Assembly (NCBI RefSeq): GCF_003426945.1
Contig: NZ_QURO01000004.1
Span: 744,001-808,000, forward strand
Direction: 5' to 3'
DNA: 64,000 nucleotides
Origin: Thermus sediminis
GTDB lineage: Bacteria; Deinococcota; Deinococci; Deinococcales; Thermaceae
In this document: positions 8,079-18,264 of the stretch, one piece after another
Position numbering within the stretch: position 1 is the stretch's first letter
How the letters are laid out: each line of letters begins with the position of its first letter
Made by a program: the position numbers and the translations under genes
Notes under the pieces: model-generated
What the model was told of the DNA's origin: nothing
Databases searched by the model: none
What the model saw: only the letters and a program-made list of their open reading frames with translations

Positions 8079-10223
8079 ATGGCGGAAACTTCCAGTCCCA
8101 TTCCGCAAAGCCCCCTAGGGTGGCTCGCACGGCTAGTCCTCATCCTGGGTTCCCTCTACAGCCTCTACCTGGTCCTCCACCCCTTCACCCCCCTGGCCAA
8201 GGCCCAGATTGACCTCCTGGACATCGTCCAGCTTCAGCGGAGCACCCACGTCCTCTTCCTCCTCCTGGGAGCCTACCTGGTGAGCTTCTTCGCCCCCCCC
8301 AGAAAGGCCACGCCGGGGGCCTGGGTCTTCCTGGCCTTCAGCCTGATCCCCCTCTACAGCTTCCTCTTTCCCAGGCCTCCCACCCTGGAGCTGCCCCTCG
8401 AGGTCCGCCTCTTCGGCCTCCTGGTCTGGGCGGTGGCCGTCCTCCCCGCAGTGGTCCCCAGGCTCCAGCGCCCCACGGCCCTCCTGGGGGCCCTTTTGGC
8501 CATCCTCCCCACCTGGTACCAGGCCCGGTACTTTGAGGAGCTGGTCTACCGGGCGGTGATCCCTGAGGCCTGGGACGCGGGGATGAGCCTCACCCTCATC
8601 CTCCTCCTCCTGGGGGTGGTCTACCGGCTCCTGGGGCCGGTGATGCCCGTCCTCGTCCTCTTCTTCTTCAGCTACAACCTCCACGCCCAGCTCTTCCCCG
8701 GGGCCTTCCGGGGGGCGCCCCAGCCCGTGGACCTCCTCCTGGGCAAGAGCTTCAACGAGACCGAGGCGGGGATCTACGGCCTTATCACCGGGGTCTCGGT
8801 CAAGTACCTGGTCTACTTCACCCTCCTCTCGGGGATGATCACCGCCTTGGGCCTGGGGCGGGTGGTGGCCAACATGGCCCTGGCCCTGGTGGGGAAAAGC
8901 CCCGCCACCCCCGGCCGGGTCACCGGCCTCGCCGGCACCTTCATGGGGATGTTCTCGGGCTCAGGGGCCGCGGACACCCAGTTCGTCTCCACCCTGACCA
9001 AGCCCCTTTACGAAAGGGCCGGCTACGACCGCCTCACCGCCGCCGGGATCGCCGCCACCGCCGGCACCATTGCCCTCATCATGCCCCCCATCATGGGGAG
9101 CATCGCCTTCATCATGGTGGAGATCCTGGAGATCCCCTACCTCAAGGTGATGGCCATGGCCCTCGGGCCCGCCCTCCTCTACCTTCTCGCCATCCTGGCC
9201 TTCAACGAGTTCTACGCCCGCAAGGCGGGCCTGCCCGCGGTGGCCACGGAGATCGGCATGGCCCGCCGAGCCTACGTCCTCCGCTATAGCCCCATCTTCC
9301 TCCCCATCCTCCTCATCGTGGTCCTCCTCTACCTGGGCTACGAGGTGCGCACCGCCGCCAGCCTAGCCCTTTTGGGCTTCATCCTCCTGGCCTACCTGGA
9401 CCCCACCCTGAGGCCCAAGGGGATCGCCCCCATCTTCCGGGGCCTCGAGGAGGGCTTCCGGGCCCTCCTCCCCATCGGCACCGCGGTGACCTCCGCCAAC
9501 CTCATCTTCTCCATGATGGTCATCTCCGGCCTGCCCTCCAAGTTCAGCCAGCTCCTGCAGCAGGTCTCCGGGGAAAGCCTCCTCCTCGCCACCCTGATCA
9601 CGGCCATCTTCAGCCTGATCCTGGGCATGGGGGTCCCCCCCACGGCCACCTACGTCCTCACCTCCGCCCTCACCGCCCCGGCCATCATCGCCCTGGCCAC
9701 CAAGAACTTCACCGCCTTCGGCCTGGATCCCGAGGCCGCCAGGGTGGCGGCGATCTACGCCACCCACATGTTCCTCTTCTACTACGCTGTCCTGGCGGAC
9801 GTGACCCCGCCCGTGGCCCTCTCCGGCTACGCCGCCGCCAGCGTCTTCGGCACCCACCCCCTCCCCACTGGGGTCTACGCCGCCCGGGTGGCCCTATCCA
9901 AGTACCTGATCGGCTTCTTCTTCCTCCTCTCCTACACGGGCACGGGCCTCCTCATCCTGCCGGTTTTGGAAACCCTGCCCCCTGAGAAGGCCTGGCCCAT
10001 CATCCTGGAGCGCTTCCTCTCCGTGGGCTTGGGAATCGTCTACCTCTCCGCCGCCGCCGCCGGGTTTACCCGGAGGCCCCTAGGCCGCCTCGAGGCCTGG
10101 ACCCTGGGGCTCCTGGCCCTCCTCCTCTTCATCCCCCAGACCTCGTTGAACCTCCTGGGCCTCCTCCTGGGCCTTCCCTTCTTCCTCAAAGGGGGCTTGA
10201 CGGGGCTCTGGCGGAGGGCGTAG
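8079..10223 (+). CDS. TRAP transporter fused permease (DctQ-DctM type, TAXI system)
   Basis: A 714-residue integral membrane protein uniting the small DctQ-like and large DctM-like subunits, as is normal for TAXI systems. The N-terminal quarter holds four or so segments of the DctQ-like part. The large part contains conserved stretches such as GMFSGSGAADTQFVSTLTKP, GTIALIMPPIMGS and LGMGVPPTATYVLTSALTAP, the two re-entrant hairpin regions of the DctM fold. Transport would be driven by an ion gradient with the binding protein delivering ligand. GGAGG sits 6 nt before the ATG. The gene is flanked on both sides by TAXI binding-protein genes. Confidence 0.93.
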   Translation: MAETSSPIPQSPLGWLARLVLILGSLYSLYLVLHPFTPLAKAQIDLLDIVQLQRSTHVLFLLLGAYLVSFFAPPRKATPGAWVFLAFSLIPLYSFLFPRPPTLELPLEVRLFGLLVWAVAVLPAVVPRLQRPTALLGALLAILPTWYQARYFEELVYRAVIPEAWDAGMSLTLILLLLGVVYRLLGPVMPVLVLFFFSYNLHAQLFPGAFRGAPQPVDLLLGKSFNETEAGIYGLITGVSVKYLVYFTLLSGMITALGLGRVVANMALALVGKSPATPGRVTGLAGTFMGMFSGSGAADTQFVSTLTKPLYERAGYDRLTAAGIAATAGTIALIMPPIMGSIAFIMVEILEIPYLKVMAMALGPALLYLLAILAFNEFYARKAGLPAVATEIGMARRAYVLRYSPIFLPILLIVVLLYLGYEVRTAASLALLGFILLAYLDPTLRPKGIAPIFRGLEEGFRALLPIGTAVTSANLIFSMMVISGLPSKFSQLLQQVSGESLLLATLITAIFSLILGMGVPPTATYVLTSALTAPAIIALATKNFTAFGLDPEAARVAAIYATHMFLFYYAVLADVTPPVALSGYAAASVFGTHPLPTGVYAARVALSKYLIGFFFLLSYTGTGLLILPVLETLPPEKAWPIILERFLSVGLGIVYLSAAAAGFTRRPLGRLEAWTLGLLALLLFIPQTSLNLLGLLLGLPFFLKGGLTGLWRRA

Positions 10224-10246
10224 GGTAAGCGAGAAAGGAGGCAAGG

Positions 10247-11224
10247 ATGCTACGTGCCCTGTTGGTCATCGTGGCACTTTCCGGCCTGGCCTTGGCCCAG
10301 AAGCCCCGGGTGGTCATCGCCACCGGAGGGGTGGGCGGGGTCTACTTCTTCTACGGCACGGCCCTGGCGGAGATCTGGAACCGGGCAGGGGTGGCCGAGG
10401 CCCAGGCCACCCAGACCGCCGCCTCCATAGATAACCTCCTCCTCCTGGAAAACCGCACCGGGGGCGGCACCTACTACTGCGGCACCGTTCTGCCCGACTC
10501 CGCCTACCTGGCCTACACCGGGGAGCACGAGCGCTTCCGGGGCCGGCCGGCGAGGAGCACCCGCATCCTCTTCGCCATGTACCCCAACTTCCTCCACGTG
10601 GTCACCCGGGAGGGGGCGGGAATCCAGGTGGTCCAGGACCTGAAGGGGAAACGGGTCTCCACCGGGGCCCCAGGCTCGGGCACCGAGGTGCAGGCCCTCC
10701 TGGTCCTTCAGGCGGCGGGGCTTTCCCCCAGGGATTTCGCCAAGCATGAACGGCTCGGGGCGCAAGAGAGCGCCAGCGCCCTGGCCGAGGGCACCATAGA
10801 CGCCTACTTCTGGTCCGGGGGCCTGCCCACGGGCTCCATCACCGAGGTGGGGGCGAGCCTGGCCCGCAGGGGCCAGCGGCTCCACCTGGTGCCCATAGAC
10901 CCCAGGGGCACCGTGGCCCAGAACTTCCAGAGGCGCTTCCCCGGCCTGGCGGGCACGGGGGTCATCCCCAGGGCGGTCTACGGGACCAGGGGCGACACCC
11001 CCACCCTCACCTTCTGGAACCTCTTCGTCTGCCCGGCAAGCCTGCCGGAGGAGGCTGCCTACGCCCTGACCAAGGCCACCTTTGACAACGTGGAAACCCT
11101 GAGGAACGCCGTGGCCGCTGCCCGGGACACCACTTTGGAGAACGCCGTGCGCTTCGTGGGCGGCACCATCCCCTACCATGAGGGGGCCCTGCGCTACTTC
11201 CGCGAGGTGGGGGCCCTGAGGTAG
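10247..11224 (+). CDS. TAXI-family TRAP transporter solute-binding protein (second copy)
   Basis: A 325-residue secreted protein with signal peptide MLRALLVIVALSGLALA and mature start QKPRVVIATGGVGGVYFFYG. It is a close paralogue of the product at 7031. Its differing internal segments (for example NRTGGGTYYCGTVLPDSA against the aligned region of copy 1) could give a different ligand range. GAAAGGAGG precedes the ATG. It is co-directional with the permease after 23 bp and with the DUF1850 gene after 2 bp, so the operon reads binding protein, permease, binding protein, DUF1850. Confidence 0.93.
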   Translation: MLRALLVIVALSGLALAQKPRVVIATGGVGGVYFFYGTALAEIWNRAGVAEAQATQTAASIDNLLLLENRTGGGTYYCGTVLPDSAYLAYTGEHERFRGRPARSTRILFAMYPNFLHVVTREGAGIQVVQDLKGKRVSTGAPGSGTEVQALLVLQAAGLSPRDFAKHERLGAQESASALAEGTIDAYFWSGGLPTGSITEVGASLARRGQRLHLVPIDPRGTVAQNFQRRFPGLAGTGVIPRAVYGTRGDTPTLTFWNLFVCPASLPEEAAYALTKATFDNVETLRNAVAAARDTTLENAVRFVGGTIPYHEGALRYFREVGALR

Positions 11225-13777: not shown

Positions 13778-14272
13778 ATGACGCTTTCCACCGCGGACCT
13801 CTGCGACCTCTACCCGGAGGCCGTCCTCCTCCGGCCCATCTTTCAGGACTTTGGGGGGAAAGGGCGTTTTGCCGGAAGGGTGCGCACCCTGAGGGTCTTT
13901 GAGGACAACGCCCTGGTGCGAAAGGCCCTCGAGGCCGAGGGCCAGGGCCAGGTCCTGGTGGTGGACGGGGGCGGCTCCCTGCGCACCGCCCTCCTGGGAG
14001 GGAACCTGGCCCGGCTGGCCCTGGAGCGGGGCTGGAGCGGGGTGGTGGTCCACGGGGCGGTGCGGGACCGGGAGGAGCTGCGAAGCCTTCCTCTGGGGGT
14101 CAAGGCCCTGGGGGCGGTGCCCAGGAGGAGCGCCAAGGCGGGCCGGGGCCTGGTGGACGTGCCCGTGGCCTTCGCCGGAGCTAGGATCCTCCCTTCGTGG
14201 TTTCTCGTGGCCGATGGGGAGGGGATCCTCCTCCTCCCCGAGCCCCCGAGCGGCGGCCAAAGCGGCGGATGA
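13778..14272 (+). CDS. RraA-like protein (RraA/HMG-aldolase family)
   Basis: A 164-residue RraA-fold protein. The segment LVVDGGGSLRTALLGGNLA (about 68-86) and GVVVHGAVRDREEL (about 96-109) match the family's ligand pocket with its conserved Arg and Asp. Members are either 4-hydroxy-4-methyl-2-oxoglutarate aldolases or inhibitors of RNase E; in a bacterium of this group the aldolase-like function is more likely, but the sequence does not decide. The start is ATG 13778 because the -10 TACTAT lies 6 nt upstream. The 3' end overlaps the convergent mutL by 92 bp. Confidence 0.88.
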   Translation: MTLSTADLCDLYPEAVLLRPIFQDFGGKGRFAGRVRTLRVFEDNALVRKALEAEGQGQVLVVDGGGSLRTALLGGNLARLALERGWSGVVVHGAVRDREELRSLPLGVKALGAVPRRSAKAGRGLVDVPVAFAGARILPSWFLVADGEGILLLPEPPSGGQSGG

Positions 14273-15795
14273 GGTCCTCCTCCTTCAGGGCCAGGAGGAC
14301 GGGCCGGCCGTGGGGGCAGACCCAGGGGGTCGCACAGGCCAGGAGGGCGTCCAGAAGGGCCTGCCCCTGGGCCTGGGCCAGGGGGTGGCCCGCCTTGAGG
14401 GCGGGGAGGCAGGCCAGGCGGGCCAGGAGCCCCTTCAGCCCCCTCCCCTCCCCCCGCAAGGCCTCCTTGAAGATCTCGGGCAGGAGGAGGGGGTAGGGGT
14501 GGAGGAAGGAGGGGGCGGAGAGGAGGCGCACCCACCCGGGGCCGAAGGCCTCCCAGGCGAAGAGGGGGTAAGGCCCCTCGGGGAGGAGGGCCGCCTCCTC
14601 CGGGGTGAGCTCCACCAGGACCGGGTAGGGTAGGGGCGCGAGGCCCTCGTTCTGGAGGCGGGCGAGGAGCTCTTCAAAGAGGACCCGCTCGTGGGCGGCG
14701 TGCTGGTCCACCACGTAGAGGGTGTCCCCGGCCTCGGCCAGGAGGAAGCTCCCCCGGAACTGGCCCAGGTAGCGCAGCCGGGGCAGGCCGGAAGGGGCGG
14801 GGGCCTCGAGGGGGAGGGGGGCCTGGGCTCGGGCAGGGCCCGGGCTAGGCCGCGCCCGCGCAGGGCCTCCCTCAGGGCCTCCTCCAAGAAGGCCTCCGCC
14901 CCCGGGCCCAGGGCCACCTCCTCCTTCCTGGCGTCCAGGCGCAGGCGGAAGGCCCCGGGGGGCAGGGTGAGGTTCAGGACCCCCACGGGGTGGTGCCCCT
15001 CGGGGAGGAGGTCGCGGTAGGCCCGGCGCACCGCCCCCAGGGCCGCCTCGGGGAGGAGCACGGGCCTGCCGTTTACCGAAAGGAAGAGCAGGTCGGGCCG
15101 GGTGCGGGAGGCCTGGGGGCCGGAGAGGAGGCCGGTGAGGGCCATGCCCCCTCCCCTGTGCTCTAGGGGGAAGAGCCTCTCGGCCAACAACCGGCCGAAG
15201 GCCAGCCTGGCCGCCTCCCCCAGCCCCGACCCGGGGAAGAGGAGCCTCGCCTCCCCCTCCAGGAAGAGGGCCAAGGAGAGGTGGGGGTGGTGGAGGAGGT
15301 AGCGCCTGAGGAGGTCCAAAACCCCTCTGGCCTCCGCCCTGGGGTCCCTGGCCTCCCCGGCGAAAAGCCCCAGGACCTCCACCCGGGTGCCCGGGGGGCG
15401 GGCGCGGGCCGCACCGCCACCGCCTCCCCCTCGGCCACGAGGAGCCCCCCGCCCACCTGCCCCCGGGGGCGGGAGCGGATCCTGAGGGAAGCCGCCTGCC
15501 TCAGGGCGTAGAGGGCCTGGCCGCGAAAGCCCAGGGTGGTGATCCCCATCGGGTCTTGGAGCTTGCTGGTGGCGAAGGGCTCCACGGAGAGGGGAAGCTC
15601 CTCCAGGGGAATCCCCTCGCCGTCGTCCTCCACCACCAGCCTCTCCAGCCCCCCGCCCCAGAGCTCCACCCTGACCCGCCTGGCCCCGGCGTCCAGGGCG
15701 TTTTCCAGAAGCTCCCGCACGGCGTCCCTCACGGAGAGGAGGACCTCGCCCCGGGCCAGGAGCCCCCGGAGGCTTTCCGGAAGGGGCCGGATCAC
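14181..15795 (-). pseudogene. mutL: DNA mismatch repair protein MutL, interrupted by two frameshifts (possibly base-call errors)
   Basis: The GHKL ATPase region is intact: ELLENALDAGA (28-38), DDGEGIP and GFRGQAL (89-95). Frame is lost at a G6 run (15393-15398), resumes one frame away with PPGTRVEVLGLF, and is lost again at G6 (14816-14821) before LRYLGQFRGSF. Adding one base at each run restores a single 538-residue MutL. The C-terminal part keeps the endonuclease motif DQHAAHERVLFEE, so this is the nicking type of MutL. GTG 15795 overlaps the mutS stop (GTGA). Because both defects are one-base losses in homopolymers, sequencing error is the leading explanation. Real inactivation, which would give a mutator, or transcriptional slippage cannot be excluded. 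Confidence 0.9.
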
Positions 15796-18227
15796 CCCTT
15801 CATGCTACCCAAGGGGGCCCCCAGGGCCAAGGCCCTGAGCTCGTGGAGGAGGCGGAGGGCCTCGAGGGGGGTAAGGCGGTCGGGGTCCAGGGCGAGGAGC
15901 CTCTCCAGGACCCCTTCCAAGGCTCCCTCCCGCCTGGCGGAGGCGGCCCGGAGGAGGGCCCGGGCCCGCTCCACCACCCCCTGGGGCAGGCCCGCCAGGG
16001 AGGCCACCTCCACCCCGTAGCTCTTGGAGGCGGGGCCGGGGAGGACCTGGTGGTAGAAGACGAGCCCCCCCGCCTCCTCCTTGGCGGCCACGTGGAGGTT
16101 CTTGAGGCGGGGGAGGGCCAGGGCGGTGAGCTCAAAGTAGTGGGTGGCGAAGAGGCCGTAGCACCGCCTCTCGTGGAGGGCCTCGGCCACCGCCGTGGCG
16201 ATGGCCACCCCGTCCAGGCTGCTGGTGCCCCGGCCCACCTCGTCCAGGAGGACGAGGCTCCTCTCCGTGGCCTCCCTTAGGATCAGGGCCACCTCCTCCA
16301 TCTCCACCATGAAGGTGCTCTTCCCCCCAGCCAGGTCGTCCGAGGCCCCGATGCGGGTGTAGATGCCGTCAAAGAGGGGAAGCTCGGCCTCCTCCGCGGG
16401 CACGAAGCTCCCCACCTGGGCCAGGAGGGCGATGAGGGCGGTCTGCCGCAGGAAGGTGGACTTCCCCGCCATGTTGGGCCCCGTGACCAGGACGAGGTCG
16501 TGGGCCATCTCCAGATCGTTGGGCACGAACTCCGTGCGCCTTTCCACCACAGGGTGGCGCCCGGCGCGGATCCGGAGGCGATCCCCGAAGCGGGGCCTCA
16601 CGTAGCCATGGCGCACGGCCACCTCGGCCAAGGCGGCGTAAACGTCTAGCTCGGCCAGGATCCTGGCCGCCTCCCTCAGGGCCTCGGCCTCCTTTTTGGC
16701 CCTTTCCCGCAGCGCCAGGAAGACCTCCTCCTCCCGGCGGCGGATCAGGGCCTCGAGGCGGTAGAGCTCCCGCTCCCGCTCCCGCATCTCCGGCAGGGCG
16801 TAGCGCTGCCGGTCCTTGAGGGTCTGGACGGGGCGGTACTCGGGGGGCACCCTCTCGTAGTAGGGCCGCGTCACCTCCAGGTAGTAGCCGAAGACGGCGT
16901 TGTACCCCACCTTGAGGGTGGGGATCCCCGTCCTCACCCTCTCCCGTTCCTCCAGCTCCGCGAAGTAGGCCACCCCCTCCCCGTGGGCCCGCCTCAGGGC
17001 GTCCAGCTCCGGGTCGTACCCCGGGCGGATGAGGTGGCCCTCGGAGAGCTTCGGGGGAGGGTCCTCCACCAGGGCCGCCCTGAGCTCCTCCAGGAGGGGC
17101 GTCAGGTCGGGAAGCCCCGCCTCCTCCCCCAGGAGGGCCCAGAGCTCGGGAAGGACCTCCAGGCTCCGCCTAAGGGCCCCGAGGTCCCTGGGGCCCGCCC
17201 GCGAAAGCTCCAGCCGCGTGGCCAGGCGCTCTAGGTCGCTCAGGCGAAAGAGGAGGCGGCGCACCCCCTCCCGCAAGCTCCCCTCCCGCACGAGGCCTTC
17301 CACCCGGGAAAGCCGGGCCTCGAGGGGGCCCGGGTCCAGAAGGGGGTGGCGGAGCCAGGCCTGGAGGAGCCGCCTCCCCGGGGCGGTTCGGGTCTCGTCC
17401 AGGATGGATAGCAGGGTGTCCTGGCCCCGCATGGGCTCAAAGACTTCCAACGCCCTTAGGGTGGCCTCGGGCAGGCGCATGAAGGCCCCGGGGTCGTAAG
17501 GGCGGAAGGGCTGGAGGCTCAAACTCCCCCCTTGGGTCCTCTGGGCGTAGGCCAGGAGGGCCCCCCGGGCCCGCCTCAGGGCCAAAGGCCCCTCCCCCTC
17601 GGGCGCAAAAGGGGCCTCGGAGAGCATGACGGGAAAGCGCTTCCTGAACTCTTCCAAAAAGGCCTGGTTCTCCAAGAGCTCCGGGGCCAGGAGGACCTCC
17701 GCGGGACGGTGGCGGAAAAGCTCGTCGTAAAGGGCGCTTTTGCTCCTGAGAAAGGTCCCCTTGAACTCCCCGGTAGAGACGTCCATGAGGGCCAGACCCC
17801 ACCCGTCCCCGGTGGCGATGGCCGCTAGGTAGTTGGCCTCCCGGGGAAGCAGGCTCTCCTGGACCAGGGTCCCAGGGGTGAGGAGCTGGGTCACCTCCCG
17901 CCTCACGAGCCCCTCCGCCTCCTCAGCAGACTCCACCTGGTCGGCGATGGCCAGGCGGAAGCCCATCTTCAAGAGCCTCCCGGCGTAGGCGTCAAAGGCC
18001 CTCAGGGGGATCCCCGCCATGGGGGTGGTGAAGTCCTTGCTGGTCTTGTGGGTGAGGACAAGGCCCAGGGCGCGGGCTAGCCTCTCGGCGTCCTCCCCGA
18101 AGCACTCGTAAAAGTCCCCCACCTGGAAGAGGAGGAGGTAGTCCGGGTAGCGGTCCCTGAGCTCCACGTACTGCTGGAGAAGGGGGGGAAGGGGGCCCGG
18201 GCCTTCGCCCTTGAGCATGCCTCCCAT
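15792..18227 (-). CDS. mutS: DNA mismatch recognition ATPase MutS
   Basis: Recognises mismatches and small loops. From the ATG at 18227 it is 811 residues. The mismatch-wedge motif GDFYECF puts Phe at 39 and Glu at 41, the same numbers as in Thermus aquaticus MutS, which supports this start over a TTG 30 bp upstream. Walker A is GPNMAGKST, Walker B SLVLLDEVGRGTSS, followed by the signature FATHYFELT. It is highly similar to Taq and T. thermophilus MutS along its length. mutL begins within its stop codon. It is divergent from the sulfite dehydrogenase gene. Confidence 0.97.
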   Translation of the reverse strand: MGGMLKGEGPGPLPPLLQQYVELRDRYPDYLLLFQVGDFYECFGEDAERLARALGLVLTHKTSKDFTTPMAGIPLRAFDAYAGRLLKMGFRLAIADQVESAEEAEGLVRREVTQLLTPGTLVQESLLPREANYLAAIATGDGWGLALMDVSTGEFKGTFLRSKSALYDELFRHRPAEVLLAPELLENQAFLEEFRKRFPVMLSEAPFAPEGEGPLALRRARGALLAYAQRTQGGSLSLQPFRPYDPGAFMRLPEATLRALEVFEPMRGQDTLLSILDETRTAPGRRLLQAWLRHPLLDPGPLEARLSRVEGLVREGSLREGVRRLLFRLSDLERLATRLELSRAGPRDLGALRRSLEVLPELWALLGEEAGLPDLTPLLEELRAALVEDPPPKLSEGHLIRPGYDPELDALRRAHGEGVAYFAELEERERVRTGIPTLKVGYNAVFGYYLEVTRPYYERVPPEYRPVQTLKDRQRYALPEMRERERELYRLEALIRRREEEVFLALRERAKKEAEALREAARILAELDVYAALAEVAVRHGYVRPRFGDRLRIRAGRHPVVERRTEFVPNDLEMAHDLVLVTGPNMAGKSTFLRQTALIALLAQVGSFVPAEEAELPLFDGIYTRIGASDDLAGGKSTFMVEMEEVALILREATERSLVLLDEVGRGTSSLDGVAIATAVAEALHERRCYGLFATHYFELTALALPRLKNLHVAAKEEAGGLVFYHQVLPGPASKSYGVEVASLAGLPQGVVERARALLRAASARREGALEGVLERLLALDPDRLTPLEALRLLHELRALALGAPLGSMKG

Positions 18228-18264
18228 CTTAACCCGCCCGGCCGGAGGGAGGCCCAAAGGGCTA

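Follow-up and report, generated by a model that had tools for sequence, protein, structure and literature searches.

Two frame breaks in mutL of a Thermus assembly are most probably single-base undercalls at G/C runs

The gene mutL of a Thermus genome (2.16 Mb, four contigs), which the assembly breaks in two places, is almost certainly an ordinary intact gene of a normal organism, both breaks being undercalls of the consensus. Within the window (the whole 64,000-nucleotide stretch analysed, G000:C4:744001-808000), one base would have been dropped from the consensus at each of two G/C runs of this GC-rich genome. We infer that the assembly is most likely long-read based and received too little short-read polishing; reads of another technology would then be expected to show longer runs. 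In the organism itself, mutL is most likely intact, with about 538 codons in a mutS–mutL operon, and mismatch repair normal. Homopolymer miscalls had been proposed by a sequence-only reading of this DNA, and the proposal is now supported by a genome-wide, nearly deletion-only pattern that includes essential single-copy genes.

The translation of mutL consists of three collinear pieces, each in a different frame (from 15795, 15397 and 14816), which between them carry the domains of a bacterial MutL: HATPase_c in P0001 (N-terminal GHKL ATPase domain of Pfam, 2.7e-10), the transducer domain DNA_mis_repair in P0002 (PF01119, 4.7e-15) and, in P0003, MutL_C (PF08676, 3e-20) together with the DQHAAHERVLFEE motif, the mark of the C-terminal dimerization/endonuclease region. 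A continuous single reading frame is lacking, one base being short in each of two places, and this was judged to be an assembly artefact. The pieces are mostly 70–90% identical to those of relatives and keep their motifs, which bears out the earlier remark that the rest of the gene is well conserved. The GTG start of mutL (15795) overlaps the stop codon of mutS. In domains, motif and mutS–mutL order, the gene resembles Thermus thermophilus MutL, a bacterial MutL of the DQHA(X)2E(X)4E endonuclease type; the sole difference is the two bases missing from this assembly.

Both G6 runs named in the sequence-only reading are present on the plus strand (15393–15398 and 14816–14821); because the gene lies on the minus strand, they read as C6 in its coding strand and mRNA. 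A codon hidden Markov model (HMM) blind to mutL placed the frame changes at 15391 and 14828. Alignment with relatives showed each junction to be one base short, and the one-frame length was computed as 537.3 codons, or 538 with two more bases, in agreement with the claim that one base per break restores a protein of about 538 residues. The attribution of both shifts to these runs held fully for the first only: in the proposed comparison with relatives, the aligned run was C7 in 11 and C8 in one, whereas the second break can be assigned either to the C6 run or to the neighbouring C5 (14810–14814). Positions no more than 2 nt from a G/C run of at least five make up only about 9.5% of the sequence, so the location of both breaks at such runs is not due to chance.

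A match to the C-terminal part of mutL was found in 25 of 26 other Thermus genomes, 24 of which encode the gene in a single frame, indicating that mutL is normally single-frame, with no conserved frame change of the programmed type. The odd one out, G003, is net two bases short, and breaks only in the same proline-rich linker (L214 near 8278; L024). These data bear on the suggestion that the runs are real and that full-length MutL arises through transcriptional slippage or ribosomal frameshifting. Thermus thermophilus dnaX offers a precedent, as its transcript slips at a homopolymer within the coding sequence (PMC1088944), but there the run consists of nine A and the short product is functional, whereas mutL here has two C6 runs. 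The mRNA runs (C6 and C5) are short and GC-rich, making the analogy with A9 weak; one MutL protein would need two successive slippage or frameshift events; the one-frame arrangement of the relatives is not what this mechanism predicts; no in-frame X XXY YYZ slippery heptamer was seen at either mutL site when read from the sequence; and the same lesions occur in essential genes. Slippage is therefore extremely improbable, and it is also unneeded.

To survey frame breaks genome-wide, we trained a codon HMM tolerant of frame changes, applied it to 864 kb of the same genome and to sampled stretches from four further Thermus genomes, and afterwards checked the breaks by homology to relatives. Homology testing of approximately 398 kb of this genome's coding sequence gave about 13 one-base deletions (both in mutL counted) and one one-base insertion (Table 1), an imbalance that has a probability of 0.0009 under equal odds (at least 13 of 14 deletions). 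Nearly all breaks were located at G/C runs of 5–8, and this excess of deletions over insertions (about 13:1) is that of long-read homopolymer undercalling. PaaZ and holA are, like mutL, broken twice. The PabB/amidotransferase-like gene is a weak entry here, as its break (L113:5023) may be a natural junction of two genes (chorismate-binding and amidotransferase domains). Five other HMM calls (L110:6550, L229:13066, L231:11716, L124:2139 and 48662 of the window) were dropped as natural gene junctions. The run-length spectrum was uninformative as a sign of undercalling: G/C runs of eight are not depleted, occurring 15.3 times per 100 kb here versus 5–7 in the four sampled relatives. This counts against an artefact to the extent that undercalling is not uniform across run lengths.

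Table 1 Coordinates of mutL, its frame breaks, frame breaks elsewhere in the genome and transposase copies
Feature	Position	Strand	Details
mutL	15795 to about 14181	minus	538 codons with two bases added
mutL 5′ part: GHKL ATPase domain	15393..15795	minus	frame 1, HATPase_c, GTG start at 15795
First frame break in mutL	15393..15398	minus	C6 in mRNA, one base short
mutL middle part: transducer, DNA_mis_repair domain	14822..15397	minus	frame 2
Second frame break in mutL, proline-rich linker	14810..14821	minus	C6 14816-14821 or adjacent C5 14810-14814
mutL 3′ part: linker end, DQHAAHERVLFEE endonuclease motif, MutL_C	14181..14816	minus	frame 3
mutS, intact	15792..18257	minus	directly upstream of mutL
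PBP1A-family gene	L110:3091		one-base deletion, G6
PolX	L112:2410		one-base deletion, C5
PabB/amidotransferase-like gene	L113:5023		one-base deletion, C6
O-antigen ligase-like gene	L117:9032		one-base deletion, C6
Unnamed 135-aa gene	L119:542		one-base deletion, without long run
MrfA-like helicase	L127:9059		one-base deletion
PaaZ	L231 near 15.83-15.88 kb		deletions, net two bases short, broken twice
Menaquinone decarboxylase	L238:6123 (G000:C4 1035.86-1037.2 kb)		one-base deletion, G6
holA	L248, about 4.80 and 4.12 kb (G000:C4 about 1963.0-1963.95 kb)		two deletions, both at G runs
M3 oligopeptidase	L235:12735		one-base insertion
IS256/Mutator-type transposase with inserts	G000:C4:204.5-205.8, 211.7-213.0, 1242.9-1244.2 kb		
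IS256/Mutator-type transposase with inserts	C3:35.8-36.9, 63.5-64.2 kb; L111:2513-3694, 9823-11004; L240:10896-12077		
Second transposase family	G000:C4:427505-428558, 385487-386534, 1258845-1259892		
Second transposase family	G000:C4:1433488-1434532, 1454947-1455934; C3:64250-65291		

Two of the broken genes are essential and single-copy. For holA (DNA polymerase III delta), whose product is the clamp loader delta subunit, essential in bacteria, only one match exceeded the family cut-off. Breaks flank its middle part, one at a G5/G6 stretch and the other at a G5. Menaquinone decarboxylase (TIGR03701), an enzyme of the futalosine route to the respiratory quinone of Thermus, has one copy, split at a G6 so that two neighbouring matches are obtained, each in its own frame. 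Loss of either gene is incompatible with life as a respiring Thermus; a living strain needs both, and at least their lesions must therefore be errors. The mutL lesions share type and context with them and are read likewise as errors. The same match in type and context makes it barely conceivable that one mutL break is real and the other a miscall.

The sequence-only reading had also raised the possibility that the strain is a mutL mutant and a candidate mutator, in which the other one-base deletions would stem from a raised slippage rate. One-base homopolymer indels, which a mismatch-repair mutator is expected to gather, are found widely in this genome; mutL is also two bases short in a second species, G003; and the conservation of the remaining gene would make any loss recent. 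A mutator should, however, also yield insertions, and about 13 of 14 lesions are deletions; holA and the only menaquinone decarboxylase, which cannot be lost, bear the same lesions; and genomes with intact mutL have them at the same or higher density. Per 100 kb tested, breaks numbered 2.3 in this genome and 2.5 in G003, compared with 4.1 in G007 and 23.5 in G017 (T. parvatiensis RL; loci L149-L158, L034), both with intact mutL; nearly all were -1, and these densities are lower bounds, as the automatic count misses some HMM-found breaks (including one of the two in mutL). No frame breaks were found in 104 kb of G005 or in 44 kb from five draft assemblies. This genome thus has no excess of indels over G007 and G017, and the equal or higher density in these genomes with intact mutL indicates that the lesions do not follow from loss of mutL. 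We found nothing direct in the literature on Thermus mutL mutators. A mutator is accordingly very unlikely, and so is the wider scenario it would entail, a true mutL-null Thermus living with many frameshifts alongside an independent loss of mutL in G003 through the same linker lesions.

The state of mutL in G003 also speaks against an artefact, being a low-probability coincidence under chance errors. One-base deletions occur elsewhere in the G003 assembly as well; given this same error pattern, the coincidence needs no biological cause.

Consensus undercalls of this kind have a close published precedent. In T. thermophilus NAR1, the PacBio sequence, compared with Illumina data, contained 2927 deletions but a single insertion, for the most part at G or C runs of 5–6, and the false deletions truncated gyrA and gyrB (PMC7694296). 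The two cases share genus, one-base deletions mainly at runs of 5–6 G or C and truncation of essential genes; they differ in frequency (about one deletion per kb in NAR1, about 3 per 100 kb in the coding sequence tested here) and in that the artefact was proved with Illumina reads in NAR1 and is inferred here. At such points the same false deletion was shared by more than 90% of the NAR1 PacBio reads (PMC7694296), so that inspection of raw reads from PacBio only can mislead. More generally, false deletions at short homopolymers are the common error of long-read assemblies (PMC12007338). The gene-fragmenting indels described there with Kastor resemble those reported here in being mostly short-homopolymer false deletions found through related genomes, although A/T runs dominate in the Kastor example and G/C runs here. 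The mutL case leaves Thermus biology unchanged. In several of the sampled Thermus assemblies, T. parvatiensis worst, false pseudogenes arise where single bases are missing at G/C runs; pseudogene calls in the T. parvatiensis RL assembly are not to be trusted, and where a GC-rich genome is said to have lost a repair gene, short reads are needed to confirm it.

Two mutL genes of other Thermus genomes contain copies of a 24-nt hairpin repeat (GGTCAGCCCCGAAGGGGCTAyCTT) in the region encoding the C-terminal domain: two tandem in-frame copies in T. arciformis (L033:10222-10269), adding VAPSGLTK twice, and one copy in G014 (G014:C9:31457-31480). Allowing up to 3 mismatches, the repeat was found in 22 of the 27 Thermus genomes (1–7 copies each), including a copy at L111:7560 of the present genome, and its stem is kept by compensating changes; the reversed pattern gave none. 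We did not find a description of this Thermus repeat in the literature.

Frame shifts of another kind were observed in transposase genes (Table 1). Hairpin-bearing inserts of 20, 22 and about 42 nt, comprising degenerate copies of the repeat (20–22 nt) and related sequences, shift the frame of an IS256/Mutator-type transposase. All five places at which the first insert was found in the genome are copies of this transposase; three copies that were compared differ from one another by only 3–5 bases, and none was seen without the first insert. Comparison with a homologue in G003 that occupies a single frame (L224:11657-12835) shows the protein to be conserved on both sides of the inserts. The element may have spread together with its inserts and have some means of reading through them; the alternative is movement in trans. 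In a second transposase family (37% identical), all six copies are split at the same place into two frames, with an overlap of about 5 nt and open frames of 276 and 151 aa in most copies, possibly reflecting programmed frameshifting.
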